DNA of 64,000 bases from Liolophura sinensis (Eukaryota > Mollusca > Polyplacophora > Chitonida > Chitonidae), in the NCBI RefSeq assembly GCF_032854445.1, contig NC_088307.1:4216001-4280000 (forward strand), given 5' to 3'. Shown here one piece after another: positions 9,174 through 49,128 of the stretch. Every line of letters begins with the position of its first letter. Positions within the stretch are counted from its first letter, which is position 1. Below the pieces are notes generated by a model. That model saw only the letters and a program-made list of their open reading frames with translations. It was not told the origin of the DNA and did not search any database. A program made the position numbers and the translations under genes.

Positions 9174-10130
9174 ATATGACATAGACATTGCAAGCTTGTG
9201 TGAAATACGCCAGTTGAAATCACCCGTTGTATCTCCGGACACAACGAAATGCATTTATTGCCTCTCGAGTCATGAGCCGCTGAAACTTGTAAATGAACTT
9301 TAAGTACTATTTACTAACTATGGATGTGGGATTTTTTCTGTAAATTATATAAATTTCGGCATGATAAAACGACCGTTTACTCACGATATAAAAAGCCTAT
9401 ATCATCGTATAGAAAGCTAAAAAAAATCCTTAAATGTGGCATTACATAATAATCAAACAAATAAAAGCATAAACGCTTAATGTGGTACACATTTTGCTTT
9501 TTACGTTCTCATTTAGTAAATATCCAGAAACACACCTTTGACAAGTGAAAAAACGCTAAGGCCAAACAGACTGATAGATCGATACTTGTAGACTGACTGA
9601 TTGACTGAAGCTCATGTCTTCAGAGCTGAAGCTATGTTAACCTTACCATCGGTAACATTATATGGGCCACTCCTTGCATTTAGATCGCAATGAGTATGCA
9701 AAGCTAATATGTATTAAAGAGGTTATACCGGATATTTTGGGCAATAAACCCAGATTGGTTTGTTAAATCTAATTTTGTATATTTATCACGAATAGCTAAT
9801 ATTATGGCCTTTCAGCAAATGTCCGACCAGTGCGACTGACAGATTTTTTGCCAAAACTCTCATGTATAGTTTCTTTGAGTTTACCTCTCTAAGCGTATTT
9901 ATTCATATTTCTTTGATTGGTGTGTGTTTACGTTCGTAGCCAAGTATTTTTCACCCGGTTGGGTTTGTGGGCGATGGAAATAAGAGTAAACCACCGACTT
10001 GACTTGTTTGTTTCTCGTTTCAGTGTCCTTTTCGACAATATTTGGGACATTTCGTGACCGTGTCTCCAGGTAGAAGGTTAAAAATGATGATATTGGTGAA
10101 AAAGAGCAAGACATCGATGTGAAGATCATA
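9174..10130. other. No gene recognised
   Basis: AT-rich sequence with short open frames only (for example 10129-9899, minus strand, 76 codons). No motif recognised. Confidence 0.5.
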
Positions 10131-10139
10131 TAATGCTGT

Positions 10140-10305
10140 CACACCATATCGTTGTGCCAACACGTCATAGCGGGGTCACGTCACGAAGACACCAGCTGAA
10201 CATGACATCATGTCAGAACGATATCAAATGAACGTGACACCACGTCATGCGGACAACACGTCACGGTGACACGAACTGAATGGGATACCAGATATCCGTG
10301 ACACT
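10140..10305. repeat. Two imperfect ~85-bp repeats rich in CACGTCA
   Basis: Four CACGTCA motifs occur within about 110 bp, with surrounding order GTGAC/GTGCC ... CACGTCAT..CGG ... CACGTCACG ... GCTGAA/ACTGAA repeated once. Confidence 0.45.
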
Positions 10306-10398
10306 GATTTTGTGCCTTTTTTCTTAGCTATTTTCGTTCCACCATAAGCAGATTGTGACTATCTGTCTTCACATGTTTGCCGGTTGTGGTCTGCCGAG

Positions 10399-10440
10399 GG
10401 TGGGGGGGGGGATAGTGTGTGTGTGGGGGGGGGGGGGAGT
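10399..10440 (+). repeat. Poly-G / GT-rich microsatellite
   Basis: Two long G runs separated by a GT run, next to the tail of an antisense SINE B. Potential G-quadruplex and a likely assembly-error site. Confidence 0.55.
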
Positions 10441-10451
10441 GGAGTGATTGA

Positions 10452-10741
10452 GTGAGTGAGTGCTTGGGGTTTAACGTCGTACTTAACAATTTTCCAGTCA
10501 CATGACGACGAAGGAATCCTTAAAGTGCATGTAATGTACCTCCTTGTTGCTCTTTTATCCAGTGCTGCTTCACTGAGAAGCCTTGCCGAAGGCAAGTAAG
10601 CGGCTCCGCCCGAACCATTCTGCTGATACCGGTCAACATTCTTTGCACTATACCCTTCACGCTGAACGAAGTTACAACTTCCTCTTTTAAGTTCTTAGGT
10701 GTGACTCAACCCAGGATCGACCCTGGATCTACCGCTTCCGA
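10452..10741 (-). repeat. SINE family B, antisense
   Basis: Reads in reverse as the family tail (GGGGTTTAACGTCGTACT), the CCGAAGGCAAGTAAG core and the head end CCTGGATCTACCGCTTCC. The outermost part of the tRNA-like head is missing. Confidence 0.75.
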
Positions 10742-10744
10742 GGG

Positions 10745-11600
10745 GGGTTGTGGAGGATAAACACAGAGATGAAAAATGGTCAGTGTGAGTTCAAACCGAT
10801 CCAATATACAACAGCTTCAGGCCTTCACCACGGCGCGATTATCTATGTTTATTCCACTAGTTCCATTCGATGAATATATTCGACGAATTACACTGGGTAA
10901 ACGCGACTCAAGTATACTACCCTCGACAATGTATGGCAAAGCGACCTATTTATTACACGATTAGCCTCTAGAGGTAGTATCTGACATGTAGAGCAAAATT
11001 GTCATATTACCGGACACACTATGTCATTGTAATGTACACTTACGTGAATGTATATACGAGCTGTGTGAGCCAAATATAGAAACCACTACAGGTATATATA
11101 CCTCCATGACACGAGCGTTCAGAGGTATAACGTATAAGTCATGGCTATGTAGGTAAGCATGCTTCCTGGAAAGCGTTTATTTAAAACAAATATATATGAC
11201 ACTTTATTCCAACAAAGACAGACATTAATATTTGCCTATTTTAGCGGCGGCATAGCTTGAAACCAGCAGCCCTTGTGACCAATCAACTTTTTGAGACCAA
11301 CTGCGGCTTAACGTCAGGAGGTATTTCAGTAATACGGCGTCACATGATTATATATACGTAACAAATTTGTGAGATTGGCTTAAAACATCAGCCGAGTAAA
11401 AAAAAATTGAGCTTATGGGATTTCAATATATGTCCAAACGTATTACGGTGGTAATCGCGAAGAGGCGAGATACATGACCATCTCTGTACCTGTGTACGCG
11501 AGAAGACATAACTATTTATATAATAGATACAGGGAATTGAAAATCTTATTTCCGTGGTAATCGGGTATCCTTACCTCTGTATCTACGCAACCAACAAACG
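10745..11600. other. No gene recognised
   Basis: AT-rich sequence with TA-rich stretches and short unrelated open frames (longest 62 codons at 10776-10964). A SINE A 3' fragment follows at about 11610-11715. Confidence 0.45.
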
Positions 11601-11609
11601 AGTTTCCCA

Positions 11610-11715
11610 GCGGTTTACTGGGGAACACTGCTCGGTTTCCTCCCACCACAATGCTGACTGCCGTGGTGTAGGTCAAATGCTCGTAAGTACGCCAATCAGC
11701 AATCAAATAATAAAT
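11610..11715 (+). repeat. SINE family A, 3' fragment
   Basis: ACTGCTCGGTTTCCTCCCAC, AATGCTGACTGCCGTGGTG and CAATCAAATAATAAAT match the 3' half of family A. Confidence 0.55.
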
Positions 11716-11869
11716 ACATTACCTGTACACGCAAAACAACTAGAGTTGTAGCTCGGACCATGACCGGTGGCCGTATGGATAGGCCAAATCGAGATAACAC
11801 GACATGCCTTTTTGTCTTCTTTTTGTTCAATAACGGTTTAACACTCATTACCATTTTGTGATCGAATAA

Positions 11870-12922
11870 TTTCTCAGTATCACCCTAATTCCACAATCTT
11901 TTCGCACATGTCCCAGTATCACCCTAATTCCTCAACATTTTTGCACATGTCCCAGTATCACCCTAATTCCTCAACATTTTCGCACATGTCCGAGTATCAC
12001 CATAATTCCTCAACGTTTTCGCACATGTCCGAGTATCACCCTAATTCCTCAACATTTTCGCACATGTCCCAGTATCACCCTAATTCCTCAACGTTTTCGC
12101 ACATGTCCCAGTATCACCATAATTCCTCAACATTTTTGCACATGTCCCAGTATCACCCTAATTCCTCAACATTTTCTCACATGTCCCAGTATCACCCTAA
12201 TTCCTCAACATTTTCGCACATGTCCCAGTATCACCATAATTCCTCAACGTTTTCACACATGTCCCAGTATCACCATAATTCCTCAACATTTTTGCACATG
12301 TCCGAGTATCACCCTAATTCCTCAACATTTTCGCACATGTCCCAGTATTACCCTAATTCCTCAACATTTTCGCACATGTCCCAGTATCAACATAATTCCT
12401 TAACGTTTTCGCACATGTTCCAGTATCACCCTAATTCCTCAACATTTTCACACGTCCCAGTATCACCCTAATATCTCAACCTTTTCGCACATGTCCCAGT
12501 ATCACCATAATTCCTCAACGTTTTCGCACATGTCCCAGTATCACCCTAATTCCTCAACATTTTCTCACATGTCCCAGTATCACCCTAATTCCACAACCTT
12601 TTTGCATATGTCCCAGTATTACCCTAATTTCTCAACCTTTTCACACGTGTCCCAGTATTACCCTAATTTCTCAACATTTTCACACGTGTCCCAGTATTAC
12701 CCTAATTTCTCAACCTTTTCGCATATGTCCGAGTATTACCCTAATTTCTCAACTTTTTCACACATGTCCCAGTATCATCCTAATTTCTCAACATTTTTGC
12801 ACATGTCCCAGTATTACCCTAATTTCTCAACCTTTTCACACATGTCCCAGTATCACCATAATTCCTCAACCTTTTTGCATATGCTCCAGTATCACCATAA
12901 TTCCTCAATATTTTGGCATATG
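11870..12922 (+). repeat. 39-bp minisatellite, about 27 units
   Basis: The unit is 39 bp (13 codons), so an open frame runs through it: MSQYHPNSSTFSH repeated (11908-12471, then 12491-13036). A 2-bp deletion at about 12449 breaks the frame. Differences between units change the amino acid in most cases (CCT/CAT, CAG/GAG, TCG/TTG) rather than sitting at third positions. This fits a non-coding minisatellite better than a selected protein. Units after about 12600 form a second subtype (ATTACC, TTTCTC). Confidence 0.85.
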
Positions 12923-12942
12923 AAAGAGCAATTTTCAGTGCA

Positions 12943-13130
12943 ATGTTTGCACAGTTTTAATTTGATTTTGGAGACAAAACTTACATTGGTTGGATTTTCC
13001 AATTTCAGGGCTTCACAAAAAATACAATGTTGTTAATCCACACAGAATAATACCTTAAGAATACGCTTGAAACGACACCTTGCAAACATGCCAAAAGGTT
13101 GAAGAATTACAGTATTGACAAATTACTCAG
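12943..13130. repeat. Dispersed repeat flanking the minisatellite; second copy at 38406-38575
   Basis: Shared landmarks: TTGGTTGGATT, CAGGG-TTCACAAAA, CACAGAATAAT, CTT-AGAATA-GCTTGAA and GGTTGAAGAATTACAGTAT. The copy at 38.4 kb is preceded by a single piece of the 39-bp unit (CTCAACCCTTTTGCATAT). The minisatellite is therefore probably an expanded internal part of this element. Confidence 0.6.
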
Positions 13131-13180
13131 GTAAATTAAAGGCATTTGACAGTAACAGCATGCATATTCAGTTTGATACC

Positions 13181-13427
13181 CTCAAAAAATTAATCTGTTA
13201 AAGTTAACAGAAAGTCTGCTGTCTGAGTGATGCTGGAATGTGTTCTGTTATTGCAGCATTATTGTTCTGTTAAATGTAACACACATATACTTTTAATTCA
13301 ACATAACCATTCCATTAGACTAATATTAGGTTGACAATATTGTGTCATAATAAGAGAATTCAATCTAACATCACTCAGACAACTCAGACTTTCTGTTAAA
13401 TTTAACAGTTTCATTTTTTAAGTGCAG
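13181..13427. mobile_element. MITE-like inverted-repeat element, copy 2
   Basis: Left arm CAAAAAATTAATCTGTTA ... AACAGAAAGTCTGCTGTCTG and right arm CAGACTTTCTGTTAA ... TTTTTTAAGTG are inverted repeats of about 60 bp with a short AT-rich centre. No coding capacity. Confidence 0.7.
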
Positions 13428-14272
13428 AATACACCCAGCTGTTTTCAGTACGGCATATAATCGCTAGAAACTGGAAAGAATCGAAAAGTCGGGCATATTT
13501 CTCTTTATTTGAACAAAAGTAAATACAATTTGACGTATTTAACCCTGTAAAAACAGTTAAGACATGCGCGTACCAGTTTTCATCAGAAGTAGTAAAATTA
13601 CGATTTTGAGAAAAATAACTGGTTATATAATTTGAACATTACCTAGCATTAGTTCTTGTATGCGCATGCGTGAATTTAGTATCAACCCGCAAAAATCTGG
13701 TAAAATCAGAAATCGGACAAAAGTAGGCGAGGCCAGCACGACTGGCTTCTCCTTGACTCTTTTCGATATCAGCGTGTGTTGTTGTGCGGTGCGGAGAGGA
13801 GGTGTAAAGGTGGAAACACTAAGCAGCCAGCCAGCAATCTGTAGTAGACAGTAATCTAGATCATGTGAAAACAAACCAGGGTTCGTGACCCCCGTCTACT
13901 GCAATAAATGCCAGCCGTTTAAATTAACCGATTTATATAAAGCTATATATAGTATACGCCTTGGGTATTGTAGAGCACATTTTATTTACACTGTGTTCAA
14001 AATCTATCAATCAAAACCGCCGTACAATTCCAGGGTTATTTATATATGATTATAACTCAAAGGGGGAGAGGGCTCTTCTTTGTTAGAGCGATTGCCCATG
14101 TACTTTTTATTTGATTTTATTTATTTGATTGATGTCTTTTATTTACACTCTGTTAAAAATCTATCAATCAAAACTGCAGTACAATTCATAGGTAATCTAT
14201 ATACATGTATACTTATAATTTAAAGGGGGAGAGGGCTCCACTTTGTTAGAACGATTGCATATGTAATATTTA

Positions 14273-23553: not shown

Positions 23554-24558
23554 ATGGAAACAGACGTAGCCTCACTTGGAAACCAGGTCACGGCCTTGAC
23601 CTTGGCGGAACCGGAACAAAAGATCATCGAAGGCCAACATTTCCCGCTCATTCTCACGCCTTCTAATGGGAGCCTTGTCTCGCATTTAGAAACCTGCAAC
23701 TGGGTTCGTGGACAGAAAGATGAAATTAAGGCGTTGCTGTTGAAGTATGGCGTCATATTGTTCAGAGACTTCCCACTGCGCCAAGCTCTTCACTTTGATG
23801 AATTCGTGAAGTGCTTAGATTACCAGCCATTTCCATATGTAGGTGGCGCTGCTCCTCGTAACGTTGTTGTTGGTGATGTCTTCACCACTAACGAGTCTCC
23901 ACCCGACACGCTCATCCCATACCATCACGAAATGGCGCAGGCGCCGAAATTCCCAAGGACGCTTTTTTTCTACTGCGAATCTCCAGCGAAACAGGGAGGT
24001 GAAACACCCATTGTGCCGTCCAATTACGTCTATCGACAAATCAAGGCGAAAGAACCCGAGTTTGTCCGAGAGCTGGAAGTTAAAGGCGTTAGGTACGTCC
24101 GAATTTTGCCGGAAAAAGACGATCATTCGTCTCCGATCGGCCGAGGCTGGAAGTCCACGTACTTAACCGACGATCCAGAAGAAGCTGAGCGAAAGTGTGG
24201 CGAACTCGGCACTTCCTTCGAGTGGTTAGCCGATGGTTCCATGAAAACGGTGACGAAGGCTGTTCCCGCCGTCAAAGCCGATCCTCGCACAGGGAAGAAA
24301 GCCTGGTTCAATTCTGTCATCGCCGCCTACAGAGGCTGGAAGGACAGCAGAAACGTACCGGAGAAAGCTGTGCTCATGTCCGACGGCACTTTCATGAAAC
24401 CGGAAGTGATGGACGTTGTGGAGAGAACGCTAGATGACGCTGCGGTCGATTTCCGGTGGCAGCCAGGCGACGTGCTGATGGTGGACAATTATCAGGCACT
24501 GCACGGTCGGCGGGTGTTCACGCCTCCCCGAAGAATTCTCGCGTGGCTTTGCGTGTAG
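23554..24558 (+). CDS. TauD/TfdA-like Fe(II)/2-oxoglutarate dioxygenase (clavaminate synthase-like), paralogue 2
   Basis: A 334-residue protein in one exon, paralogous to the minus-strand gene at 1451-2458. It keeps the family's active site: H-x-E in PYHHEMAQ (His124, Glu126), distal His317 in ALHGRRVF, and Arg326/327 as the probable 2-oxoglutarate contact. The shared signature GGAAPRNVVVGDVFTTNE is intact, and IGRGWKSTYL and LADGSMKT match the first copy. The predicted role is Fe(II)- and 2-oxoglutarate-dependent oxidation of an unknown small molecule in the cytosol. The start is the first ATG after a plausible acceptor (TTTTACAACCACAG, exon from 23530), 24 bases downstream. Poly(A) signals AATAAA are seen at 24806-24811 and 24995-25000. 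No frameshift or missing key residue is seen, so both copies look functional. Confidence 0.92.
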   Translation: METDVASLGNQVTALTLAEPEQKIIEGQHFPLILTPSNGSLVSHLETCNWVRGQKDEIKALLLKYGVILFRDFPLRQALHFDEFVKCLDYQPFPYVGGAAPRNVVVGDVFTTNESPPDTLIPYHHEMAQAPKFPRTLFFYCESPAKQGGETPIVPSNYVYRQIKAKEPEFVRELEVKGVRYVRILPEKDDHSSPIGRGWKSTYLTDDPEEAERKCGELGTSFEWLADGSMKTVTKAVPAVKADPRTGKKAWFNSVIAAYRGWKDSRNVPEKAVLMSDGTFMKPEVMDVVERTLDDAAVDFRWQPGDVLMVDNYQALHGRRVFTPPRRILAWLCV

Positions 24559-25363: not shown

Positions 25364-25959
25364 TCTAAGCCTTAAAAAACGACTTCGTGAGTTCGAATCT
25401 AACTCCAGCTGGATTAGATTCGGTTTTTCTCGTGAAATTTGCCAGGTGCACTTCAGAAGGATGTTCGATTTTCTTGAGTGCCATTTAAGATATGAGACTA
25501 CCATAAGCTATCAACAAAATGGTCATTTATCTAAATGAAAATAGGCGTGTTTACTCCATTGTACGGATCATTCAGGGCATGTGTTCGAGTCATTTAAACA
25601 TTCAGATTGTCCTCTCTTATACTACATCTTTGCTTCAGCTTTAAATCTGGAAATTTGTCAGGTTCCAGGAGGGTGCGATGGTTTCCTCAACCTGGTTTCT
25701 TCCACTCAAAACCTGTAGCGGCATTGCATGAATGTACTATTCTTTTTAGTTCAACGAAAAATCTTGAACTAATAGATTTGACTCAGTGACATTAACAGAG
25801 AAACAATAGTGGTTGTAACCATCAACAGGTGTAAGTAAAGTAAGCGTGAGCCATAGCCACTTTCTGAAAGCAACTTACAACTGTATGTGAGACAACTACG
25901 TTATCCCAACAAAGTGTATTTACACGCCTTTCTGTTATTCGATCCTGTAAAAGCCAAGC

Positions 25960-26191
25960 ACCAAGGAGGAATGCGGTTGCTGTGAGTTCGAGTCCAACTC
26001 ATGCTGGCTTCCTCTCCGGTCGTAGGTGGGAAGCTGTGCTAGCAAGCTGGATATGGTCGTGGGCTCCCACTGCCCGGTTTCCACCCACCATAATTCTGGC
26101 GGACGTTGTATAAGCGAAACATTCTTGAGTACGGCGTGAAACACCAATGAAATATAAATCAATAAATAAAAAAATAACAAAACAAATAAAT
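25960..26191 (+). repeat. SINE family A, 5'-truncated, with target-site duplication
   Basis: GTGAGTTCGAGTCC, TGCTGGCTTCCTCTCCGGTC, GGTTTCCACCCACCATAAT and TACGGCGTGAAACACCAA are in family order. The 11-bp direct repeat AAAAGCCAAGC flanks it at 25949-25959 and 26192-26202. Confidence 0.85.
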
Positions 26192-26759
26192 AAAAGCCAA
26201 GCTAACAGTAAACTGACACTGTTCATATAACAACGCAAAACCTTTTAAATTCTTTTCAAATTATGTTTTATTATGCAGACTTTGTGTACTTATCGAGAGT
26301 CAGTGGTGAGTTACGGTTTCAAAGGACAAAGCTTAAAAATGCTATATACATGACTTAAGCAAACTTTTATTAGATGGATGGTATCAAGATTCGTATCCGT
26401 AAAAACACAATGGTTTGTACATCGGGTGTTAACCTTGCAATTTGAGTTAGCACCTTCATAAAGGACACGAAATTTGACAACAGCCAAACCGATAAAACCT
26501 GAAGAAAAATGACTGTCTTCGCTGGATTGTTCAGTACACAAACCCAGAGTTTAGAGGTCAAGCTTTACAATAGGGGACATAAATAACCATAAATAGCTTC
26601 TTCTATTTAGTAACATTCCCAGTACACAAACAATGTGAATTGATATATTAAATTGTATAGGCAAACAGGTGGTCTGCAAATCTGTTACAGAACAACAGAT
26701 CTATACATTTTCTAAAATGGACGTACGATCTAAGGAATCTTTCCCACCTTAACTTATTG

Positions 26760-27245
26760 GGGTTCAAGCTGTGTAGGATGTTGTTCAGTTTCAAGTTGTA
26801 CAGTCTGTTATTCAGGTTAAAGCTGTGTAGTCTATTGTTCAGATTCAAGCTATGTAGTCTACTGTTCAGGTTCATGCTGGGTAGTCTATTATTCACGTTC
26901 AAACTGTGAGCCCGTTGATCAGGTTCAAGCTGTGTAGTTTATTGTTCAGGTTTAAGTTATGTAGTCTATTATTCAGGTTCATGCTGGGTAGTCTATTATT
27001 CACGTTCAAACTGTGAGCCCGTTGATCAGGTTCAAGCTGTGTAGTTTATTGTTCAGGTTTAAGTTATGTAGTCTATTATTCAGGCTCAAGCTGTGTAGTT
27101 TATTGTTCAGGCTCAAGCAGTAGAGTTTATAGTTTATGTTCAAGCTGCGTAGCCTGTTGTTTAGATTCAAGCTGTGTAGCCTATTGTTCAAGTTCAAGCT
27201 GTGTAGCCTGTTGTTCAGGTTTAAGCTGTGTGGTTTACTGTTCAT
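26760..27245. repeat. 27-bp minisatellite downstream of the minus-strand deiodinase
   Basis: About 18 units built on CAGGTTCAAGCTGTGTAG plus TCTATTGTT. A ~107-bp block (from about 26870) is itself repeated from about 26976, a higher-order repeat. Because 27 is divisible by three, long minus-strand frames (NLNNRLHSL repeats) arise without being genes. Confidence 0.8.
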
Positions 27246-27544
27246 TTCTGCCTTTGCGGACGATTTGTGAGCGAACTGGCAGCTTAGGTCTGATTTATTG
27301 TTGGAGAAAAAAAGGTCCATCCGCCTTTGATCATTCCGTAAACTTAATTAAATTAATTAATTATTTCTTCATTGTTACATTGATCAAGATTATATGTATA
27401 TATATGTAAACAAATACACCTTCTCCTTTGCTAAGAAAACAAGGGAGACTTTCTAAAGTTATTTAGGAAAGCATATCGTTTCTACAGCCATTTAAATATG
27501 GGTGGATATCAGAATAGGCCTATAACAACCCATGCAGTCACTTA

Positions 27545-27698
27545 TCGAGACCGGGCTAATCAGTCATGTTTCTCTTGTTCTAACCTCCCAGCGCCAAGCG
27601 AGGCAGCAAAAAGTACTTTTCCTTAAGTCTTCCATATGACCCGATCCGGGTTTGATGCAAGGTCTCCCTTCTTCTAGGCTGACGCTCTATCACCAACG
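27545..27698 (-). repeat. SINE family C head fragment, just after the deiodinase stop codon
   Basis: Read on the minus strand: GTGATAGAGCGTCAGCC, then GCATCAAACCCGGATCGGG, then CTGCCTCGCTTGGCGCTG and ACATGACTGATTAGCCCGG. It starts about 11 nt after the TAA at 27711-27709, so it is probably transcribed in the 3' UTR. Confidence 0.7.
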
Positions 27699-27708
27699 CC
27701 AGAAGGTT

Positions 27709-28494
27709 TTAATCCATTTTGGACGTCGAAATGCTCTCATCCGGATTTGCTTTAGTATTTTTCTCAAGCCAGTCTTCCACATCCTCTATCCGACATTTCT
27801 TTGGGAAAATATCGCTCATGTATTGAATTCTGCATCTTTGAATGACATAAAGCCGCTCTGGTCTTCCGGAATATTGGGTGCACGCCTTATTGGCCATCGA
27901 GTCCACCAGAATTGGGCAAGTAACTTTTCCCGCCAAAATCTCGGCGGCTTTCAATCGGTCCTCCATGCAGAGGTGTTGATGAATCTGATAATTTTGCTTT
28001 CCCAGAGACCACTCATCTGCAGCGTGAACCTCCTGGATGTAAACTACCACGAAATCTGCAAGCCCCGCGAACCGGGACGAAATCTCGTTCCAAGCTCCCA
28101 GCTTCACCATAAACGGAGGTCACGTGCAACTTCCGAAATACACCACTAGAGGGCGTTCTCCCTGTTGAAAATCTAACAGCGCATGCGTTGTCTTTCCGTC
28201 CAATGAAATCAGCTTCGGGTTTGGCGCGATATCCCAGCGCTTAGCTTGTTTGAAAATGTCGTCATATTTTGCTCTCCATATGGTTTTTATAAATAAAAAG
28301 TTAATAACCGAATCGGCAACATCCTCACCAGGTATCCCAGAGCCTGCAACAGCCCCTGAAGCTCTGGCTACCATTTTCTTTCTGGTTGAAGGCAACAGTC
28401 TGGCAATAAATGCCATTACTATCATATTAGCCATAAAGAAGGCAAGTTTCAACAGTTTTAGACCGGTAACCACCCTGTCAAAGAGCTCGGGCAT
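27709..28494 (-). CDS. Iodothyronine deiodinase-like selenoprotein (UGA = Sec), minus-strand copy
   Basis: Two open stretches in the same frame (28494-28123 and 28119-27709) are joined by one TGA at 28122-28120. Reading it as selenocysteine gives 261 residues, normal for deiodinases. The TGA falls exactly at the family catalytic site: VVYFGSCT-U-PPF, Sec125. These membrane enzymes remove iodine from thyroid hormones through the selenol, in a thioredoxin-like fold. Residues about 8-33 (GLKLLKLAFFMANMIVMAFI) form the expected N-terminal membrane anchor. Downstream are VYIQEVHAADEW, matching the conserved EAHxSDGW-type segment, and IHQHLCMEDRLKAAEIL. The late glycine-rich GxGPxxY motif is replaced by SDIFPKKC, an unusual change. 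The start ATG follows acceptor TTTTCAG by two bases. A 5' UTR intron may begin at donor GTAAGT (29460). Iodothyronine as substrate is inferred from the family. Confidence 0.92.
28120..28122 (-). other. Selenocysteine codon (TGA) of the minus-strand deiodinase
   Basis: In-frame TGA between ...FGSCT and PPF..., at the position of the catalytic Sec in all classical deiodinases. Open frame continues for 136 codons beyond it in the same phase, with family motifs on both sides. This argues against a nonsense mutation. Confidence 0.9.
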
Positions 28495-28791
28495 TTCTGA
28501 AAACAGAAAGAAAGAATGAATTCCTTTTAGTTTCGGCTAAGCAGCTCTGTAACGCCTTCCGTCTATCGGTTAATCAATTTGACTTCCCATTTACCTACCC
28601 AGTGATCTCCATGCATAACGACACGAAATCCTATATTTGGGGTTTAGGCAGCCGCTGAGAATTCACGCTAAATTTTCGTAAATGATCATTTCATTAGATT
28701 GGAGGTTTGGTTCAGACGAATCGGCAGAAGTTATTCGAGTTCTCGGCCTTACATTGCACGGTCAGGAGCTGACAGGCTGTGTGAAGAGTTT

Positions 28792-29055
28792 TTTTTTTTT
28801 TTTTGATTGGTGTTTTACGCCGTACTCAAGAATATTTCACTTATACGACGGCGGCCAGTATTATGGTGGGTGGAAACCGGGCACAGCCCGGGGGAAACCC
28901 ACGACCATCCGCAGGTTGCTGGCAGACCTTCCCACTTACGGCCGGAGAGGAAGCCAGCATGAGCTGGACTTGAACTCACAGCGACCGCATTGGTGAGAGG
29001 CTCCTGGGTCATTAGGCTGCGCTAGCGCGCTAACCGACTGAGCCACGGAGGCCCC
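28792..29055 (-). repeat. SINE family A, full length, antisense, with target-site duplication
   Basis: This is the best full copy. On the minus strand: TGGCTCAGTCGG (box A), GTGAGTTCAAGTCC (box B), TGGCTTCCTCTCCGGCCG, GGAAGGTCTGCCAGCAACC, the meta-domain-like core GGGTTTCCCCCGGGC, AATACTGGCCGCC and the tail GAGTACGGCGTAAAACACC plus an A run. The 13-bp duplication GTGTGAAGAGTTT lies at 28779-28791 and 29056-29068. It sits in the presumed 5' UTR intron of the minus-strand deiodinase. Confidence 0.9.
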
Positions 29056-33331: not shown

Positions 33332-34078
33332 ATGTGGCCTCTCCGGACGGTTTTGAAACTGTTACGTCTCATACTGATGTGCATAATGTTGGAGACTTTG
33401 GTGCTAATCTCGCGAGTTTTTCCGGGAGTTATGAACGTGGTGGGTTACTTCGCTCCGGAACATGTGCGATTATTGCCAGGAAGTGAAGGTCGACTTAAAC
33501 AGCTTGGCCAGAATATGAGAAACTGGAACATGAGAGCCTCCCTGTATTTTAACGGCTTGACTGACGCCTTCCTGAGAACTCATGTCAACCATCGGGCACC
33601 AAACATTACAGTTTTCAATTTAGAGGGCTCCGAATGCAAACTTTTAGACTTTGCCAGAAAGGGACGCCCCCTGGTGGTGAACTTTGGAAGCTGCACCTGA
33701 CCTTCGTTTATGCTGAAGCAGGAGCACTTCAAAGACGTTGTCCGTCGCTTTGCGTCGTCAGCTGATTTTGTGCTGGTGTACATTCGAGAAGCACATCCGA
33801 CTTACCACGGTACGAACATCGTTGGAAAAATCGAGGACCACGTGACCATCGCGGACCGAATCGAGGCTGCCAAGCTTTTGTTGACCGATGAAGGTTATCC
33901 GTGTCAGGTGGTGGTTGAGAGCTTGGAGAATCGGGCGGTTTGGGAGTATGCTTGCCGACCGGAAAAGCTTGCCATTATTTTAGACGGAATTGTGGTGTAT
34001 CTTGGGAAGAGAGGTCCCCATGGTTACTTAATGGAAGAGGTGGAGGAGTGGCTCGTGCGCTTCACACGAAAAGAATAA
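33332..34078 (+). CDS. Iodothyronine deiodinase-like selenoprotein (UGA = Sec), plus-strand copy
   Basis: One exon encodes 248 residues if the in-frame TGA at 33698-33700 is read as selenocysteine (Sec123 in VVNFGSCT-U-PSF). Residues about 5-32 (LLRLILMCIMLETLVLI) are the predicted membrane anchor. The catalytic thioredoxin-like part contains SADFVLVYIREAHP, the DHVTIADRIEAAKLL segment matching the family's QHxxxxxR block, and the late KRGPHGYLMEEVEEWL, close to the vertebrate GxGPxxY...WL ending. Expected activity is reductive removal of iodine from iodothyronines, with inner- or outer-ring preference unknown. The ATG lies six bases after acceptor TCTGTCGTTTCAG (exon from 33326). A strong donor CAG|GTAAGG at 31115/31116 could mark the end of a 5' UTR exon. 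Two AATAAA motifs sit at the stop codon (34074-34079, 34084-34089); using them would remove any SECIS. Divergent from the minus-strand deiodinase 4.8 kb away. Confidence 0.93.
33698..33700 (+). other. Selenocysteine codon (TGA) of the plus-strand deiodinase
   Basis: TGA lies between FGSCT and PSFMLK in an otherwise open 249-codon frame. Same alignment position as the TGA in the paralogue at 28122-28120. Two independent genes carrying the stop at the same catalytic residue is strong evidence for recoding. Confidence 0.92.
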
Positions 34079-34929: not shown

Positions 34930-35725
34930 GCTAGAAGCCCACAAATGCTGGTGCAGCAGTGAGCTTGTGGCGTGACAGTGATGAGCTACAGGCTTGATAG
35001 TGGTGAGTTAGTGGTGAGCAGAGGCCCCTAAACCTGGGCTAGCGATGAGTTAGGATCTTCTAAAGCTTGGCTAACGGTGAGCTAGTGGTGTTATAGTGGT
35101 GTGTTTATGGCATGATAGTGCTGAGCTAGAGGTGTGATAGTGTGAGCTAGGGATGAGCGAGTGGTGTGATAGTAGTGAACTAGCGGCGAACTAGCGACGA
35201 GGCATAGGCGTGATAGCGGTGAACAAGTGGCGTGATATAGGTGAGCTAGAGGCGATGTAGTGTTGAGCTACTGGTGGGCTATAGGCGTGATAGTGGTGAG
35301 CTATCCATGAGCTGGTGGCGTAATAGTGGTGAGCTATCTGTAAGCTGGTGGCGTGATAGTGGATAGATAGAGGCGTGGTGGTGGTGGTGTGCTAGCGATG
35401 AGCAAGTGGCGTGATATAGGTGAGCTAGAGGCGTGGTGGTGTTGAGCTACTGGTGTGTTATAGGCGTGATAGTGGTGAGCTATCCATGAGCTAGTGGGGT
35501 GATAATGGTGAGATAGAGGCGTGGTGGTGGCGTGCTAGCGATGAGCGAGTGGTGTGGTATAGGTGAGCTAGAGACGTGGTGGTGTTGAGCTACTGGTGTG
35601 CTATAGGCATGGTAGTGGTGAGCTATCCGTAAGCTGGTGGCGTGATAGCGGTGAGATAGAGGCGTGGTGGTGTGCTAAATGTGAACTAAATGCATGATGG
35701 TGGTGAGCTAGCTGTGGCGTGGCAC
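34930..35725 (+). repeat. GTGAGCTAG / GTGATAG repeat tract
   Basis: About 800 bp of irregular 20- to 45-bp units built from GGTGAGCTA, GGCGTGATAGTGG and GAGGCGTGGTGGTG. Open frames are not maintained. It lies 0.85-1.65 kb downstream of the plus-strand deiodinase; the next AATAAA is at 35946-35951. Confidence 0.7.
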
Positions 35726-35951
35726 AGGTAATCTGATTTAGCTTCATGGTCCATGCACTTGATTCAGGAACCTTTTTCCCTCTACTTTTTGTATAATACT
35801 TTCACATTTGTTGTTTTCTCATGTTCATAGATGTCTACATTTACCATAGCTCTTCACAACCTTAAAAAAACACCAAACTTGCCATTCAAAGTTTATTGTT
35901 TATGATGGTGTTTGCAGAAATCGCATTGCCTTCACCTGATGCCTTGAATAA

Positions 35952-37229
35952 ACTGATACGAGCGGGAAAAACATTCAACGTTACGTGCCTTATTCATTTA
36001 CATTTTATACATTTATTATTGGTCAAGTAGTAGGAGGCTTATACCAAAATTAAGACGACTGACCATTCCTCAATAAAGTCATGAGTTCGAATCCAACTCA
36101 AACTGATTTTGCTGCAATCTTGATACAAGATAAAAGTATGCGAAAGTCGGAAAAGCAAAAGTGGACTGTCAAAGAACCAAAGATTCATGCACTTTCGTCA
36201 TTTTTCATGCAATTGCAAATCTGCTTTTTAAAATTTACTTAGAGTGACCAAAATGCAAAAAAGAAGAAAAACCAATTAGGATCTATGGTGGGGTGTTGGG
36301 GCCATATTAATGAGACAGGAGCACAGTGAATGAGGTTACATATTATTTTAGTCTTTGAACATGCACTAATCCATGTAATTTCAAATCACATTTGTAAATA
36401 TTAAACTATATAGCACTAGGTACGTACTGCTATGTTGAGTACAGGAATGTATCAATCAGCGCGAATTTAGCAGCTTAAAGGAATCGGTGATTACATTGTG
36501 CTTGATCTTCTTCATTTAGGTTAAAAAAAAGTTTCACCAAAAAATCTAAGTCCTTATTTGCATTTTAGTAACTGTACAAAGATGCAAATGTTAGAAAAAA
36601 TCATAGAAACCATACTTGAAACCAGCATGAAGTCGCCTTTTAGATGAAGCGTACTTTATTTCATTTTCTCGAAGATGAAAGTTGATCTTCTTGACGAAAT
36701 TTCAGGCCGCAGTCTTTTTTACTAACCAGTTATCTCCCTTCCATCACAAACCGCGGCAGATTAATTTGACAAATAAAATTCACAAAAGTGAATGAATTCA
36801 ATCTATCTTTCTTTTATTTACATGGACATAACTAACACGACTGCCCAGAGTGAGATTCTGACAATTCTAACAAGAAAGCTATAGGGCCTACTATTGGACG
36901 GTTCGTTTTATCATTCTGTTGTTTTAAAGAGAGGCAGCACTTTTAGTTCACTGTCCGAGTTGTTGTGACGCTTGTTCTCAAGTCGATATATGCGGGTTTA
37001 TTCCTTGCCCTAGACAGCTTGTTCCCCCTCCCCCACCTCCTCACCCCCGTCTCATCCCCTACCCCATCCCACCCCTCACAGACAGACTTTTATTGCTGGT
37101 GGGGCCTGGATGGCCTCAAAGAAGTCGGCAACGTTGGAGGTGTCATATACACAGTCTACCCTTCGATGCATGAAGACGATACGCTTATCCTCCACCAGTA
37201 TATTTGTACGTCCCTCGCAATGACCCAGT
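35952..37229. other. No gene recognised
   Basis: AT-rich. A tRNA-like SINE remnant (GAGTTCGAATCCAACTC) lies near 36080-36100. The ORF at 36965-37231 has no recognised motif and runs into the SINE at 37230. Confidence 0.45.
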
Positions 37230-37366
37230 AGCTTTTCACCAATGCGGTCGTTGTGAGTTCAAATCCAGCTCATGCTGGCTTTCCCTCCAGTCGTATGTGC
37301 GGATGGTCGTGGGATTCCCCCTGGCACTGGCCGATTTCCTCCCACCATAATGCTGGCAGCTGTCGA
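37230..37366 (+). repeat. SINE family A, partial
   Basis: TCACCAATGCGGTCGTTGTG, GTTCAAATCCAGCTCATGCT, GGATGGTCGTGGGATTCCCC and TCCCACCATAATGCTGGCAG; the 3' tail is missing. Confidence 0.75.
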
Positions 37367-37814
37367 GCTTGGACCTGTTACGGCTCTCTACGGCTTCTGT
37401 AATTTTTTACAGCTGAACAAATATGGGCTGAATTCAATAATCAGTTTATGAAAGAATCACAATGAAATGTGATATGAAATCTTCCTGAATCAGTAGACGG
37501 TAGCTTTGAAAAATTGTAAGTGACCAGATTCTTGACTAAGGCATGAAACATCAGTCAAAGGAATTCGAAATAACTTCGTTAAGCAACAAGAATCAATTCC
37601 ACAACTCCAGGTTTGATTTAAATTCTTTATTTAAGTATGGCCTGATCTATTATAACTAAAAACAATATGTAAATCTATGTATTGCAATAGGCATTCCTAT
37701 ACCAATCGTGGAGCATAATGGACGTTATATTTCAATATTTTGAAAATAACATAAAACAATTATACAACATGGACAATAAAACCAGAGCAACGACAATAGT
37801 GACGATAGCGATAG

Positions 37815-37922
37815 TGACAACATATATACTTGTGTCAACATATAGACTTGTGACAACATATATACTTGTGTCAATATATATACTTGTGACAACATATATA
37901 CTTGTGACAACATATATACTTG
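37815..37922. repeat. 18-bp minisatellite
   Basis: About six units of ACTTGTGACAACATATAT with small changes. Open on both strands only because 18 is divisible by three. Confidence 0.75.
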
Positions 37923-38388
37923 AATAGAACACATAACACATTTCCCATATACAGCCTGCGTTCAGTGAAACCCACGCCGGCTAAGAAATCCGTGAATCCT
38001 CAGAATCACAGTCAACTCATTTGAGCGACTTTGACTAGTTTTTGTACTGTATTTGGGAATATTCTAAGGGCACTTCTGACTTTGTTACTCAACGATAACA
38101 CTTTTCGACTAAAGGTTACAAGAAGCATAAGCACAAATGGACCGACCCTTTCTTTTAGGTGACATCATCTTATCCCAAATCGTCTACATGAGTTAATCCA
38201 CAGCTGGAGATCTGAGAGTTGAAATTACTGATGATGTGTATTGTTCTGAACTTTCACCAAGTTAAGATTTTGTTAAGCTGGACGCTATGATATATGGACA
38301 ACACGTCAAAACTTTACCCTATAACAAATAAATAATCGTGACTGATTAAACTCTACATTGCCCAGATGTTAGTTCTGGCCCTTCTGAT

Positions 38389-38967
38389 CCCTCAACCCTT
38401 TTGCATATTTTTTTTCAGCGCAATTTATGCACGTTTAAATTGGTTGGATTGGCCAGTTTCAGGGATTCACAAAAGTAAAATTTTATCAGTCAACACAGAA
38501 TAATGCCTTGAGAATATGCTTGAATAAACACCTCGCAAACATCCGAAATGGTTGAAGAATTACAGTATGAGAATATGTGTTTAACTATTTTGCTCTTGAA
38601 CGTTTTGACCTATGTACCCATATACCAATCAAAACATCAATGTATATGAGTTCCGTTTTGTGTGCAACTGTTCACATATCCATGTTGGCGAATGTGTTCA
38701 TTACGATGTGCACACGCTGCCTCAAGGCCTAGCTGTTTCAGTCAAAAGTAACAAACGCCCTCGACCCGACATCACACATCTGTCTTAGTCTTAAATTAAA
38801 ATTGTAATCATTAACTTTAGTATATTCCTTGCCGTTATTTTAGCTGACTGTTGTTGTACAATAACTTATTCAGAATTTACGATGTCAAACAATATTTTGA
38901 CTTTGTTACACCAGAAATAACAATTTTAAAATGATTTGAAAGTTTGAGTTAAGTCTAAGATCGCTTC
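38389..38967. repeat. Element with two parts seen elsewhere in the window
   Basis: 38389-38575 matches the flank of the 39-bp minisatellite (12943-13130) and includes one partial unit. 38831-38967 matches 7736-7862. This may be one old ~580-bp transposable element of which the other loci keep different pieces. Confidence 0.45.
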
Positions 38968-38969
38968 AT

Positions 38970-40905
38970 GGTCCCTGGTCAAGGTATTTGTTTACGTCCT
39001 TGGCTTTCATCATGAGAAAATACTGGCTGGATTCGTGTCAACCATGAGAGACATCAAAGCTTTCCATATTGTTATTTTATGAAGTCATTGTAGTAATTCG
39101 GTAGTTACGAAAGCTTTGTTGGTAAATTAATCAATTTGGTGATGATGTTGTTGCATTTTCACGGGCACATGCATTTGGTGAAATAGATCAGAAAGATGCC
39201 TTTATAATCCATGAGTCTAATTAAACTGTCTATATAGGTCGCCGTGGTACTTAAAAAAACCTCAGAGATCAAGGGGGTGTCGGGGAGCGTGAAGCAGTGG
39301 GGTGGGGGTTTTCGGCCTCAGCACTGTGAAACTGGCCCTAAATCATGATAAGATGTTTCCAACAAGGTGACTATTGAGGAGACACCTCCTTTATAACAGA
39401 GCTGTATTTAATTAGCACACATATGGCAGTTGTTATTTTGTTTACAGAGATACTTACACCGTTTCTATTCAGCCCGTATCCGCTTGGAAGGTTCCGGCAG
39501 CCAAATTGGCATTTTAGCAAGACCCAAACAGATGTCCATCTTGGAGTGCCATCTTTAAAATCCTGCTCAATCTCTCTTATGGGGGATTTGGCTTTTTGAG
39601 AGGGATCCGATGGAAATGTCGGAGGAGACAAAAGAGCATTCGTGGAGCATAGGCTTTGTGGGTATGATCTCAGTTGGTTTCTGATTTGTTTGCATTAATG
39701 CTCTCTCGCCAGTATTCCGCCAAGAAATGCAGTGGGCAAACAAAGAATAAAAGGACTTTTGAAAAAAACCAACAATGCGAATCAAGTTAAATAAATCCGC
39801 TGCAATGAATAATTTACACCGGAAGATTGTTAGGTAAACAGGTACAATAAAGAGTGATTAGGGCACATAAAATCTGGTTTGATTACCTCACCTGACCCTA
39901 CGGGCACCTGCTAGGAAGACATAGTAGAGCGAGGTGGGTGGAAGGGGGTAAATGGATAGATCAGAAGTTCATTTACGCTTCCGTATAGATAGTCATTTCC
40001 CTAATTTTTGAATGAAAGGAAAAAACACGAATTCTTAAAACGGAAACTGTACTAACGTTAAACTGAACATTTTTTAAGTGGCGGAGGAGGGAAATGTTTG
40101 GTAAAATACCCTGCTGTAATTTTTATTTCACAGCCTTCTAAATGTTCAATTAATGCTCATGATGCGTTTCACATTAGAAGAAGTCTTGTAATCTAACTTT
40201 CCAGACATCATAAAGGTGTCGGCATGCACTCATGGTATCGCATTTGCCATGTTATATCGCACTGAAAAAAGAATGCACGCTCTTGTTTTCCACTGTTTGA
40301 TCACATATTAATACATCCACGCACTGATCAAGACCTATACAGTGACTATATTTGGACGCAAACAGAATAGTCAATCACCCATTCGTTTTTACACACCTCA
40401 AACTATATATAATAAGCATGCCCCCACACTGCACTAGTTTCAGGGCGATTTTTTCAATTCGGCCTGTCATTATTCACTGCCTAAGTTTAATTTGTTTTTA
40501 ATATCTGAAGTGTCCTGGGCCAAGTTTCACATTTTTTTATCGTACATTTGTTGCATGGCTTTTTGTATGTCACTATAACCGTTCCATTGTCCTATATGTG
40601 CGATTATCGTACAAGTACGACATCTTTGTGAAACTGGGCCCAGGTATATATACTTTTTTTCGATAATGCAGTGTGGTGAAATACGTTGAACTAACCAGTT
40701 TTACCACTGATTTCAAATTACCGTGATAAAAATATACGTGGGGTTTCAATAGTGATAAATAAAATAACAAACTGATTAATCAGTTATATGAGAGAACCAA
40801 TGCACTGTAATTATAAACATATTCTCATAACAGCGAGGGATAGGTCAGCTTATATAGCTATATATAAGTTAAGCAATACACCGGTTAAAACATATCCCCA
40901 CATAA
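38970..40905. other. No gene recognised
   Basis: Short open frames only (longest 86 codons at 39631-39371, minus strand). No protein motif or repeat array. Confidence 0.5.
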
Positions 40906-40909
40906 CTAC

Positions 40910-41141
40910 ACTAAAAAAATTAACCTGTTAGCTATAACAGAAAGTCTGTTTTCTTAGTGATGCTACAATATATTCTGTTATAATAACATAATATTCTGTC
41001 ATACTCAACCTAATGTCTTATTTATCTAATAGAATGTTTTAGAATATTTAACCAAATAATGTATTGCAATCAGAGGATACATTTTAGCATCAGTCAGATA
41101 ACAGACTTTCTTTTAAAATTAACAGATTAATTTTTTTGAGT
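40910..41141. mobile_element. MITE-like inverted-repeat element, copy 3 (best preserved)
   Basis: Left end CACTAAAAAAATTAACCTGT and right end AACAGATTAATTTTTTTGAGTG are inverted repeats extending about 65 bp inward. TA on each side fits a Tc1/mariner-type target duplication. There is no coding capacity. Confidence 0.75.
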
Positions 41142-41146
41142 GTAAT

Positions 41147-42600
41147 ATTTCTTCATGATTGCATGTCCTAATCTTGCTCATCCCTCTCTTTCTCGAACCC
41201 TGGGCATCCCCTATCCCTCCTCTCCATCTAGCACACTGCTCCCTGCTTCTCCTTATCTCTGCTGTTAATCTGACATCTGTGCCCTGCCAGGTAAGAGTGT
41301 GAGACAGACAGGAAATTATCATGGCGATTGTTTTCCTGCTGGCGGATATTCCCCATTATTGATTGCCATCGATAAGAGGAATTGACGGCGTCATATCTGT
41401 ACAGATGTCACATTCCAGCATATGTGCCATCAGATACAGGGGAGAGGATAAAGGTGGTCAGAGAGAGTATTCTGTATCCATTATTCCATCTGACTGATTT
41501 TTAGGATTTGCTGGCGTTATTTTCAGAATCTATGAATAAAAAAAAAATAGCACATTGTAAAACTGCAAGTAAATTTTTTCTACAACGCTATCGGTACATC
41601 TGCACTTAAATATGATCAAAACCCTCACTTGAAGAGACCCACAAAGTTCTTTTAAACGGATCGTACATTTAAAGATAGATTCGTCAAATTTAATGGCTAC
41701 CTGTTTGGGTGTGTGGTTATTCGTACAGGACTCTTCGGGTGCAGTATAACAGAGATGCAGTAGAGTGACAACTGTATCCATGACAGCAAAAATTCAAGCC
41801 TATCATCCTTCAATTATTTACAATTATATCTTTACTTTGACAAGAAGAAACTGGAAAACGAGAAGAAACTGAATTATAAAAGAAGTGACACGTGATGACC
41901 CCTGAAAAAGTTTCCATGTATACTGTAAGAGCGTTAGAGCGTTTTCTTCTTTCTGTCCATTGTGATTGATTGAGCTAATAGAACATGATTTCATCTCCTT
42001 CAAGTGTATAATTATAGTCCTACGTATGTAAAACCTGATTTTCTATCGACAGGTGTTTCTAATTTCACGTATACCCACCGGAATCAGGTAAAGGTGAATT
42101 CCGAGATAATGAACTGAACCCTGTGGAGACGCCGCTCTCAGGTCCTGTAATTAAATCTCTCGCCGTCATGGATCTATGTTATTATCTTTGAATAAAACTT
42201 TTGAATTCTTTATCCACTCTCTTTTTATACCTACATAAGAATATTCCTGTTTTTGAGACACGGGAGCAGGTGGTTTTACGCTTCTGTGAACTTTCCCTAT
42301 GTAGGTCAGCTTCACACTTAGTCCTGCCTTATAACCATGCCGTTTTATAGTCCTCTGGGTGCTTGGAAAGTAACTCTATATAAAAATCGCGTATACTGTG
42401 AAGTAATAAACACTAACATATACCACTTGAAAAAATCATAAAGTAGAACAAAATATGTTTACATCAAATTTTCATATTTTATCTTATGCTAAATGTGAAA
42501 TCTTGGTGGTTAAATTCTACTCATTTATTATATCACAACTACTTTTATTCCTAAGATTTTGCTTCGTGTGGCACTCGCGTGGTGTAAATATATATTTTTT
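41147..42600. other. No gene recognised
   Basis: Includes a pyrimidine-rich run ending in a strong donor-like CCAG|GTAAGAG near 41290, but the sequence before it gives no recognised peptide. Confidence 0.4.
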
Positions 42601-42611
42601 TTTCAGGAAAG

Positions 42612-42742
42612 ATGGCTCGGGTTATAATATCCAGTTAACGAACTGCGAGGTCTTTAAGCAGTGTTTCATTGGAATGCGCCAACGTCCTGTAATAGGCGTA
42701 CCACTCATTGTTACATTATTCTTTTCATCCGCTGCCCTATAA
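42612..42742 (+). other. Exon-like segment with motif KQCFIG, copy 1
   Basis: An acceptor-like TTTTTTTTTCAG is followed by an open stretch reading DGSGYNIQLT, NCEVFKQCFIGMRQRP and VIGVP. A second copy at 44120-44261 reads INWNVLKQCFIGVSQGA and LFGLP. Over 23 aligned codons the copies differ at 8 first, 1 second and 10 third positions, which is the pattern of a protein-coding past. Family not recognised. It could be an exon of an unknown gene or a pseudogene piece. Confidence 0.4.
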
Positions 42743-42782
42743 GCATTTGTTCAACTGTGCCAAAATGCTGTAAGTTAAAAAG

Positions 42783-43112
42783 ATTTATTTATTTATTTGA
42801 TTGGTGTTTTACGCCGTTCTCAAGAACACTTCACTTATACGACGGCGGTCAGCACTATGAGGGAAAGAAACCGGATATAACCTTGAGGGGATAGTGCAAC
42901 GACTGGTTGACCCGTATCAGTACAATGGCGGGGCGGCTTCAGTGAAGCAGCACTAGATAAAATAGTGGTCGAAATACGTCCTGCAACAAGGAGGCACATC
43001 ACATGCATTCTAACGACTCCTTCGTCATCACACGATTGAAAAATTGTTAAATACATCATTCCTCACCACCGTATCCTCATCACTAAGCCCCAAATACTCA
43101 CTCACTCACTCC
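42783..43112. repeat. Chimeric SINE: antisense family A end joined to sense family B
   Basis: 42783-42893 is the reverse of a family A 3' part (TTGATTGGTGTTTTACGCCG, ACTTATACGACGGCGG). At about 42893 it switches without a gap to sense family B (GGGGATAGTGCAACGACTGG ... CACTCACTCACT). The B head is missing. Confidence 0.75.
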
Positions 43113-43639
43113 ATGGCAAACCACAGTGGAGTCCGTCTCTAACATTCGTTTGTGCACAGCTGTGTCCTCTTGAACTTAGTTCCTAAACCATTAATAATTA
43201 TACAGGTACATGCTGGGCTGATATGGACCTAATACACGGCTAGGTATAAAACCCTAGAATTATCCCTTCAGAGAAATAGTTAATGACTTAATGTATTTTG
43301 TGATGATATTTACAAGAGTCAAAACCCTACATTACAACCCAATCATCATGCTGTTGATGGACAAATCGGCGCGCACTATTATGAGTTGTACAGATTTTAT
43401 GAAGTTCGTCAGATACTGACAGCCTGTGACATGTGTAGTATACTAAATGGACACAGTTGGATACTGGATGGAATTCCCTAGCCAGTCCGATCAGTGCATG
43501 TGTACTCGTGGATTTTAGTGAATGTAATTACATAATAATCAACCCCAACACTGCAAAAAATCTCAAGATTTTCTTTGCAAAAAATTTTGTAAGTACGTAC
43601 ACGTGAATGCAGCAACGTAGATCTAACGTAAATGAAAAA

Positions 43640-43936
43640 TTCATGGGAAACATGCATTCTGGATCGTGTTATATTGAACTGTGTGTGGTAATGGGGTGTG
43701 TTGTAATGAGGAAGAGGTGTATTTACCTAGTTGTGAAACACAGCGGGTGGCAATTCCTCACAAGCATTCAGTACAGAATACACCAGGACTTATACCAAGA
43801 AGAATTGATCATTACAAGGGTTTCGATAGAGTACACGGATTCTTCAAAGAAAACCAAACTGGTCACACATGAGTGGGCATCGGTGGAGATTCTCCCACCA
43901 CTTATGCCGTCAGTCGCAAAGGATCGTGCTGTGAAT
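43640..43936 (+). other. Cysteine-rich open segment, coding status unclear
   Basis: Two overlapping frames are open. One reads VCGNGVCCNEEEVYLPSCET; the other reads GSCYIELCVVMGCVV and later ELIITRVSIEY. The counterpart at about 45730-45880 is about two thirds identical, but differences are spread evenly over the three codon positions. There is no support for either frame. Confidence 0.25.
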
Positions 43937-44770
43937 TGACAATGTCTTAACCTCTGCATTCCACAAAATCAAGCCATTAAATTAACAATGTTTGCATCAG
44001 CGGTCTCGCTAATACCCTTTAATTAGAACCTCCTAAGTTTTGTTACCTTTCCAATGTGAAATGCATGAAGTTAGTGAGTTTCTGCTGCTGAGATTTCTGG
44101 TGCAGATTTGGCTGAATTTGTCACTTGGGTTTAAAAGAAATATGAATTGGGTTGTAGAATTCAGTTTTATAAATTGGAATGTCTTAAAGCAATGTTTTAT
44201 TGGAGTGAGCCAAGGTGCATTATTCGGCCTACCACGTTCCCGGCATACTCCCTGTCTATCGTAAATACAAGTAAGACTTTATTTACGCGTAATTAAAAAC
44301 ATGATGACGCTTTCACGCAAGCTAGAAAGTACAGTAACGTTAAATACATAAATATTCTTTGTGGGTACCTCATCTGCTTATATTAAAACACACATTCACA
44401 GTTATCCAAAATAATGAGTTATTTTCTGCATTTACAAACAGTTTAGCTTTATAGGTACCATTTTATTAACGGCAATTAATCATTTACCTATAGTTATGCA
44501 TCGTTTATGATAGTTGTGTCCATAGATGGAGATGTCATTAAAATTAATCACCATACAGGAAACTATAGGTCCATTGTGAAAAATCATACCGGGTTAATTT
44601 TGTTTCATTCCAGGTAGATATAATGGGGGAAGTTACGCATGGCAAATCATTGTCGGGACCGTCTCTAATATTCGGAGAAAATATATCCTGGACTAAGAAT
44701 ACCACTCAACATATAGTATGTTATTATGATTGTCTAAATCGATATAATGGGGTAGACCCAGGAATTTTCT

Positions 44771-45025
44771 CTTTATTTATTTATTTATTTATTTATTTGA
44801 TTAGTGTTTTACACCGTACTCAAGCATATTTCGCTTATACAACGGCTGCCAGCATTATGGTGGGGGGGAGAGGAATCGGACAGAGCCCGGGGGAAACCCA
44901 CGACCATCCGCAGAATGCCTGCAGACCTTCCCACATACCGCCGGAGAAGAAGCCAGCATCAGCTGGACTTGAACTCACAGCGACCGCATTGGTGGAAGGC
45001 TCCTGGGTCATTAAGCCGCCCTGGT
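44771..45025 (-). repeat. SINE family A, antisense
   Basis: TATTTGATTAGTGTTTTACA, GCCAGCATTATGGTGGGGGG, CGACCATCCGCAG, GAACTCACAGCGACCGCATT and TCCTGGGTCATTAAGCCG. The distal part of the tRNA-like head is missing. Confidence 0.8.
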
Positions 45026-45090
45026 GATACAACTTCAGCTTTGCTCAAAGAGTCAGAAGACTCAAAAGTGAATCAGATATTTACAGAAAT

Positions 45091-45757
45091 GTGACACAAA
45101 ATGCCATGGCGGTGTGCGGGTGTATTCAGTGCTGTGGATTCAGAACTGTGGCACAAAATGCCATGGTGGTGTGTAGGTGTATTCAGTGCTATGGATTCAG
45201 AACTGTGACACAAAATGCCATGGTGTTGTGTAGGTGTATTCAGTGCTGTGGATTCAGAACTGTGACACAAAATGCCATGGCGGTCTGTGGGTGTATTCAA
45301 TGCTGTGACACAAAATGCCATGGTGGTGTGTAGGTGTATTCAGTGCTGCGGATTCAGAACTGTGACACAAAATGCCATGGCGGTGTGTAGGTGTATTCAG
45401 TGCTGCGGATTCAGAACTGTGACACAAAATGCCATGGCGGTGTGTAGGTGTATTCAGTGCTGCGGATTCAGAACTGTGACACAAAATGCCATGGCGGTGT
45501 GTAGGTGTATTCAGTGCTGCGGATTCAGAACTGTGACACAAAATGCCATGGCGGTGTGTAGGTGTATTCAGTGCTGCGGATTCAGAACTGTGACACAAAA
45601 TGCCATGGCGGTGTGTGGGTGTATTCAGTGCTGCGGATTCAGAACTGTGACACAAAATGCCATGGCGGTGTGTAGGTGTATTCAGTGCTGCGGATACAGA
45701 ACTGTGACACAAAATGCCATGGTGGTGTACAGGTGTATTCAGTGCTGTGGATTCAGG
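45091..45757 (+). repeat. 57-bp minisatellite, about 12 units
   Basis: The unit is 19 codons and open on both strands: VTQNAMAVCRCIQCCGFRT on the plus strand and TALNTPTHRHGILCHSSES on the minus strand. One unit (about 45300-45315) is shortened. Units are nearly identical from 45310 on. The single-copy counterpart in the other duplication copy (about 43730-43790) is not repeated, so the array grew after the duplication. Confidence 0.85.
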
Positions 45758-45899
45758 GGACTTCAATGTAGAATTAAGAATTCATCATCACAAGCGTTTC
45801 GGTACAGTACATGGCCACTTCAGGGACATTCAAACTTGTCGCGCATGGCCGTCCAGGGCTCTTGATACCCACTCACAGAGGGGATACAATGATTCAATT

Positions 45900-49120: not shown

Positions 49121-49128
49121 TAACACAA

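Follow-up and report, generated by a model that had tools for sequence, protein, structure and literature searches.

A probable selenocysteine-containing iodothyronine deiodinase gene in the chiton Liolophura sinensis

A 64,000-nt stretch of contig NC_088307.1 of the chiton Liolophura sinensis (the window) contains, on its minus strand, a deiodinase-like reading frame with a TGA codon in its middle, which raises the question of whether this codon terminates a dead gene or is read as selenocysteine (Sec) in a working one. Translation of positions 28494-27709 yields a single frame with one internal TGA at 28122-28120, as the preliminary description of this DNA had claimed, and both motifs quoted there, VVYFGSCT-U-PPF and YIQEVHAADEW, are present as given. 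The product of this gene, termed here gene A, comprises 261 residues including the presumed Sec and is followed by a TAA terminal stop; the coding part (27709-28494) is apparently a single exon. The membrane anchor proposed in the same description coincides with hydrophobic residues 12-30 near the N-terminus (28405-28461, minus strand), which on hydrophobicity are a likely anchor: they form the top 19-residue hydrophobic stretch, with a Kyte-Doolittle value of 1.93, whereas no stretch that begins past residue 45 exceeds 1.25. An N-terminal membrane anchor is a trait of the deiodinase family, and the location of the most hydrophobic segment matches this expectation.

The only Pfam family matched by the gene A protein is T4_deiodinase (PF00837), with 190.2 bits (cut-off 27) and an E-value of 4.5e-56 over residues 13-246, i.e. 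on both sides of the TGA; at the sequence level this similarity is far beyond chance. Among the PDB chains two distinct sequences are matched, namely the catalytic domain of type 3 deiodinase (D3; PDB 4tr3/4tr4; 137 bits, E 5.6e-39) and type 2 deiodinase (D2; PDB 9h48; 103 bits, E 1.8e-28). The identity over the aligned stretches is 39% to D3 and 41% to D2, the bit score is higher for D3, and no D1 chain is found among the PDB matches. The deiodinase family is characterized by a thioredoxin-like fold, which homology to the solved D3 structure implies for the gene A protein; a structure predicted from three sequences had a mean pLDDT of 55.2, too weak for a fold comparison.

The catalytic region of gene A is the same as that of the type 3 and type 2 enzymes (4tr3/4tr4, 9h48). 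In the alignment with both PDB chains the TGA is paired with Cys at the active-site position, and the Sec/Cys position is next to a P-x-F motif, gene A reading FGSCT-U-PPF. The FGSCT sequence is common to gene A and D3, whereas D2 has FGSAT, and near the C-terminus all three differ (FPKKCR in gene A, GPDGYQ in D3, GPFSYN in D2). A five-sequence alignment contains 32 invariant columns, including F120, G121, S122, T124, (Sec125), P126 and F128 as well as Y152, E155, H157, H174, D179, R180 and E213, and we take several of these residues to be catalytic in D3. The codon at 28120-28122 thus occupies a column held by the active-site Cys in the D3 and D2 chains and by TGA in two paralogs described below, and we infer that it very probably encodes Sec125.

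The preliminary description depicted two deiodinase genes; both are real, but they are not just a pair, as a profile search of the genome (609,464,459 bases in 632 contigs) returned five matches at four loci, A, B, C, and D. The sister gene B (33332-34078, plus strand) is divergent to gene A, with the two ATGs about 4.8 kb apart, and has a single internal TGA at 33698-33700 (FGSCT-U-PSF). The assertion that two diverged genes carry a stop at one and the same residue holds, since codon 125 of A and codon 123 of B fall in the same alignment column. Loci C and D are both on contig C7, apart from the contig of A and B: C has an uninterrupted coding frame with SCT-U-PPF, and D is exon-split, with a Sec exon that reads SRS-U-PPF (by eye, with splicing predicted). 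A TGA is thus found at the matching place in all four loci, each with a SECIS-like candidate downstream. At the DEW/DGW block, which the other two aligned paralogs, D2, and D3 all retain, the gene B protein is shorter by three to four residues.

Upstream of the gene A frame, a pyrimidine-rich stretch followed by CAG (28497-28520, minus strand) forms a likely 3' splice acceptor 2 nt 5' of the ATG, which implies a non-coding 5' exon further upstream. Equivalent signals precede the ATG by 2, 6 and 2 nt in genes A, B and C, respectively, and suggest a common layout of a predicted non-coding first exon and one coding exon. Within the window, acceptor-like signals at most 5 nt before an ATG were found for 24 of the 2503 ATGs on both strands, a range that excludes the acceptor of gene B (6 nt).

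On the minus strand of 25500-27708, where the preliminary description placed the search for a SECIS element, the Rfam model SECIS_1 matches positions 26468-26410 with 22.2 bits, below the gathering score of 35. This SECIS-like element exhibits AUGA, a helix, an apical AAA and a 3' CGAU, and is located 1.24 kb 3' of the stop and ~38 nt 5' of a candidate poly(A) signal AATAAA (26366-26371, minus strand); it is a candidate element identified by score plus position only. The raw E-value of 2.2 refers to a search of 14 kb on both strands with 4227 families and becomes about 4e-5 when rescaled, by our own arithmetic, to one family and the ~2.2-kb sense 3' flank. Two control segments of the window (37000-51000 and 1-14000) gave no SECIS_1 match at E-values up to 10. 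The Rfam search of the whole window lists only the element of gene B, that of gene A having there an expected E-value of about 10 and falling just outside the list. A genome-wide SECIS_1 search, in which 150 of 13032 candidates were scored and which consequently says little, gave two matches, one of 34.9 bits, the best of those scored and still short of the cut-off, and one of 23.8 bits; both lie away from the deiodinase loci, and the gene A element is not among them.

Folding of the gene A element yields the expected helix round an apical loop with AAA, with a z-score of -2.15 and 5 of 200 shuffles folding equally well. A cruder pattern test is less favorable to it: when the 3' flank was dinucleotide-shuffled 2000 times, 53 of the shuffles attained the pattern score and 36 equaled the element in inner-helix energy. 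A pattern-and-energy scan of 213,704 strand-bases (some of them doubled by overlapping loci, and exclusive of L001 and L003, which are part of the window) reported 12 rows at 11 distinct places. The gene A element is row 7 of these and the gene B element was missed; rows 1-2 are in the 3' flank of locus D, rows 3-4 represent one place in the 3' flank of locus C, and rows 5-6, which stand above the gene A element, are found where no SECIS is expected, in the gene B minisatellite and at a tRNA locus (L009). At its 3' quartet the element reads CGAU, whereas the consensus given in the mussel paper PMC8481496 is KGAW, and this mismatch is the weak point of the SECIS case for gene A. Four further AATAAA sequences lie between the stop and the element, and constant use of any one of these would leave the gene A mRNA without its SECIS. 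A planned covariance model with the gene A element left out was given up, because the automatic alignment misaligned the four other SECIS-like elements.

The presumed 3' UTR of gene A also contains, between the stop and the SECIS-like element, a minisatellite of 18 copies of a 27-nt unit (26761-27244), diverged relatives of which, with 66-68% identity, occur on contigs C8 and C9. Gene B has a minisatellite of a different unit in the corresponding place (35077-35722), and these arrays make the presumed 3' UTRs of both genes longer.

Over the four loci, SECIS-like candidates were detected by Rfam at three with sub-cut-off scores and by the pattern scan alone at locus C, and none of them attains the Rfam cut-off of 35 bits. 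The gene B element (35894-35950, plus strand) scores 26.4 bits with E 0.16, and its fold has a z-score of only -0.59, with 52 of 200 shuffles as good. Locus C has no SECIS_1 match in the Rfam searches of the stretches L002, L004, and L005, and its pattern-scan candidate is equaled in total score by 38 of 2000 flank shuffles and in inner-helix energy by 123 of 2000. Locus D has two SECIS_1 matches downstream (28.5 and 24.1 bits), ~250 nt apart, which form two tandem SECIS-like elements on the minus strand (L006, 7566-7500 and 7314-7251, corresponding to about 59609.0k and 59608.8k of C7). A precedent for two SECIS elements is the amphioxus deiodinase gene Bf.DI_b, according to PMC3473315.

Decoding of UGA as Sec requires dedicated machinery, and our search for it covered tRNA-Sec, SepSecS, and eEFSec. 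A tRNA-Sec profile search of the genome gave 32 matches, five of them above the family cut-off. Control genomes produced a match in 14 of 14 cases, above the cut-off in 5, so weak tRNA-Sec matches mean little; the two best matches in the chiton (80.4 and 79.1 bits) are tRNA-SeC with the anticodon TCA according to ARAGORN. For SepSecS, a single contig has seven exon-size matches inside 9 kb, with E-values between 1.1e-19 and 1.2e-10, no one of which is by itself above the whole-protein cut-off, and domain III of eEFSec has one match in the genome, with E 2.9e-38. The genome thus contains tRNA-Sec with a TCA anticodon, SepSecS exon matches, and eEFSec.

The sub-cut-off SECIS match with its off-consensus 3' quartet and the minisatellite expanded in the 3' flank could be taken as marks of a decaying duplicate, i.e. 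a pseudogene in which the TGA is a true stop or the SECIS has degenerated. We consider this very improbable and rejected it on the grounds of the intact frame and the codon-position constraint. Apart from the TGA the frame is intact over 261 codons, with homology that extends through residue 246, and the TGA sits exactly in the active-site column. In the comparison with locus C, the closest paralog, the identities at codon positions 1, 2, and 3 are 51, 65, and 36% over the 124 codons upstream of the TGA and 52, 67, and 30% over the 123 codons downstream; these values are nearly equal on the two sides, which indicates a similar degree of protein-level constraint after the TGA and before it, the second position downstream remaining 67% identical and the third only 30%. 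Gene A accordingly presents an in-frame TGA with conserved protein on each side, as selenoprotein genes do. Still harder to credit is that the TGA is bypassed or otherwise read, through a sequencing error, RNA editing, an intron or ordinary read-through, so that the enzyme has Cys or another residue at this position. The deiodinase genes of Nematostella have been found only in the Cys form (PMC3473315), but in the chiton genome a TGA and no Cys codon occupies one alignment column at three loci, and the fourth, exon-split locus D reads SRS-TGA-PPF (by eye, in an exon unmatched in the profile search). In addition, the D3-like residues that directly flank the TGA leave no space for an intron, and Sec-decoding genes exist in the genome.

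The combination of a deiodinase frame, a TGA at the catalytic position, residues common to D3 and D2, a SECIS-like hairpin, and Sec-decoding genes therefore argues for Sec, and the earlier reading of gene A as a Sec-recoded deiodinase is supported by the homology of the frame across the TGA, by the SECIS-like match, and by the decoding genes. On this sequence evidence gene A is very probably functional and encodes an iodothyronine deiodinase that contains Sec, with transcription, Sec insertion and enzymatic activity being predictions. A non-coding first exon would be spliced on just before the ATG, the hairpin in the 3' UTR would recruit the Sec machinery, the UGA at codon 125 would be decoded as Sec, and the resulting membrane-anchored enzyme would deiodinate iodothyronines or similar aromatic compounds that carry iodine. 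The Sec gene model also fits a selenoenzyme of the deiodinase family that acts physiologically on a substrate other than T4/T3, which we regard as possible though rather unlikely. Molluscan thyroid receptor activity seemingly does not arise from T4/T3 binding, according to a 2025 review (PMC12965858). Against another substrate speak the active-site region that gene A has in common with D3 and D2, the thyroid hormones, peroxidases and two deiodinases reported in an oyster study (PMC4692385), and the increase of deiodinase mRNA by T4 in oyster larvae, cited in PMC12965858. A more elaborate proposal, in which A and B would be a functional pair driven from a shared 4.8-kb region, one activating and the other inactivating the same hormone, with the 3' UTR minisatellites tuning the recoding, appears to us very unlikely.

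A gene of this kind has counterparts in other molluscs. The mussel Mytilus coruscus has two Sec deiodinases, McDx and McDy, of 258 and 242 aa, in which, as described in PMC8481496, a TGA at the catalytic center is combined with a SECIS in the 3' UTR (found there by SECISearch3), the arrangement also predicted for gene A; oyster CgDx/CgDy and scallop AfDx are named beside them in that text. Four deiodinases are listed for Lottia gigantea in PMC3473315, and the same paper describes deiodinase clusters on both strands in Branchiostoma and Trichoplax, and clustering in Lottia too. These copies are clustered like A and B; unlike those clusters, however, the chiton has one divergent pair and two further loci on another contig, C7. 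Sec deiodinases with SECIS elements are thus already known in molluscs, and decoding of a UGA as Sec is either known or predicted for the deiodinases of other animals, so that gene A is real but ordinary. In the openly licensed PMC literature we found no description of a chiton deiodinase and no relevant report of a head-to-head deiodinase pair, and the word deiodinase is absent from the Liolophura genome paper (PMC11068029). Gene A adds a chiton to the list of molluscs in which Sec deiodinase genes are complete, and the four loci of this genome provide a starting set for asking if thyroid-type hormones act in chiton development. An annotation that ends at the TGA would, by inference, split gene A or lose it.

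Two minor observations concern the surroundings of gene A. Sequences at about 28800-29050 and 26000-26180, both on the minus strand, resemble by appearance a tRNA-derived SINE, a type of element common in molluscs. Past the 3' end of gene A, on the opposite strand, positions 23554-24558 contain an intact 334-residue frame that matches the TauD dioxygenase family (PF02668, E 2e-35).
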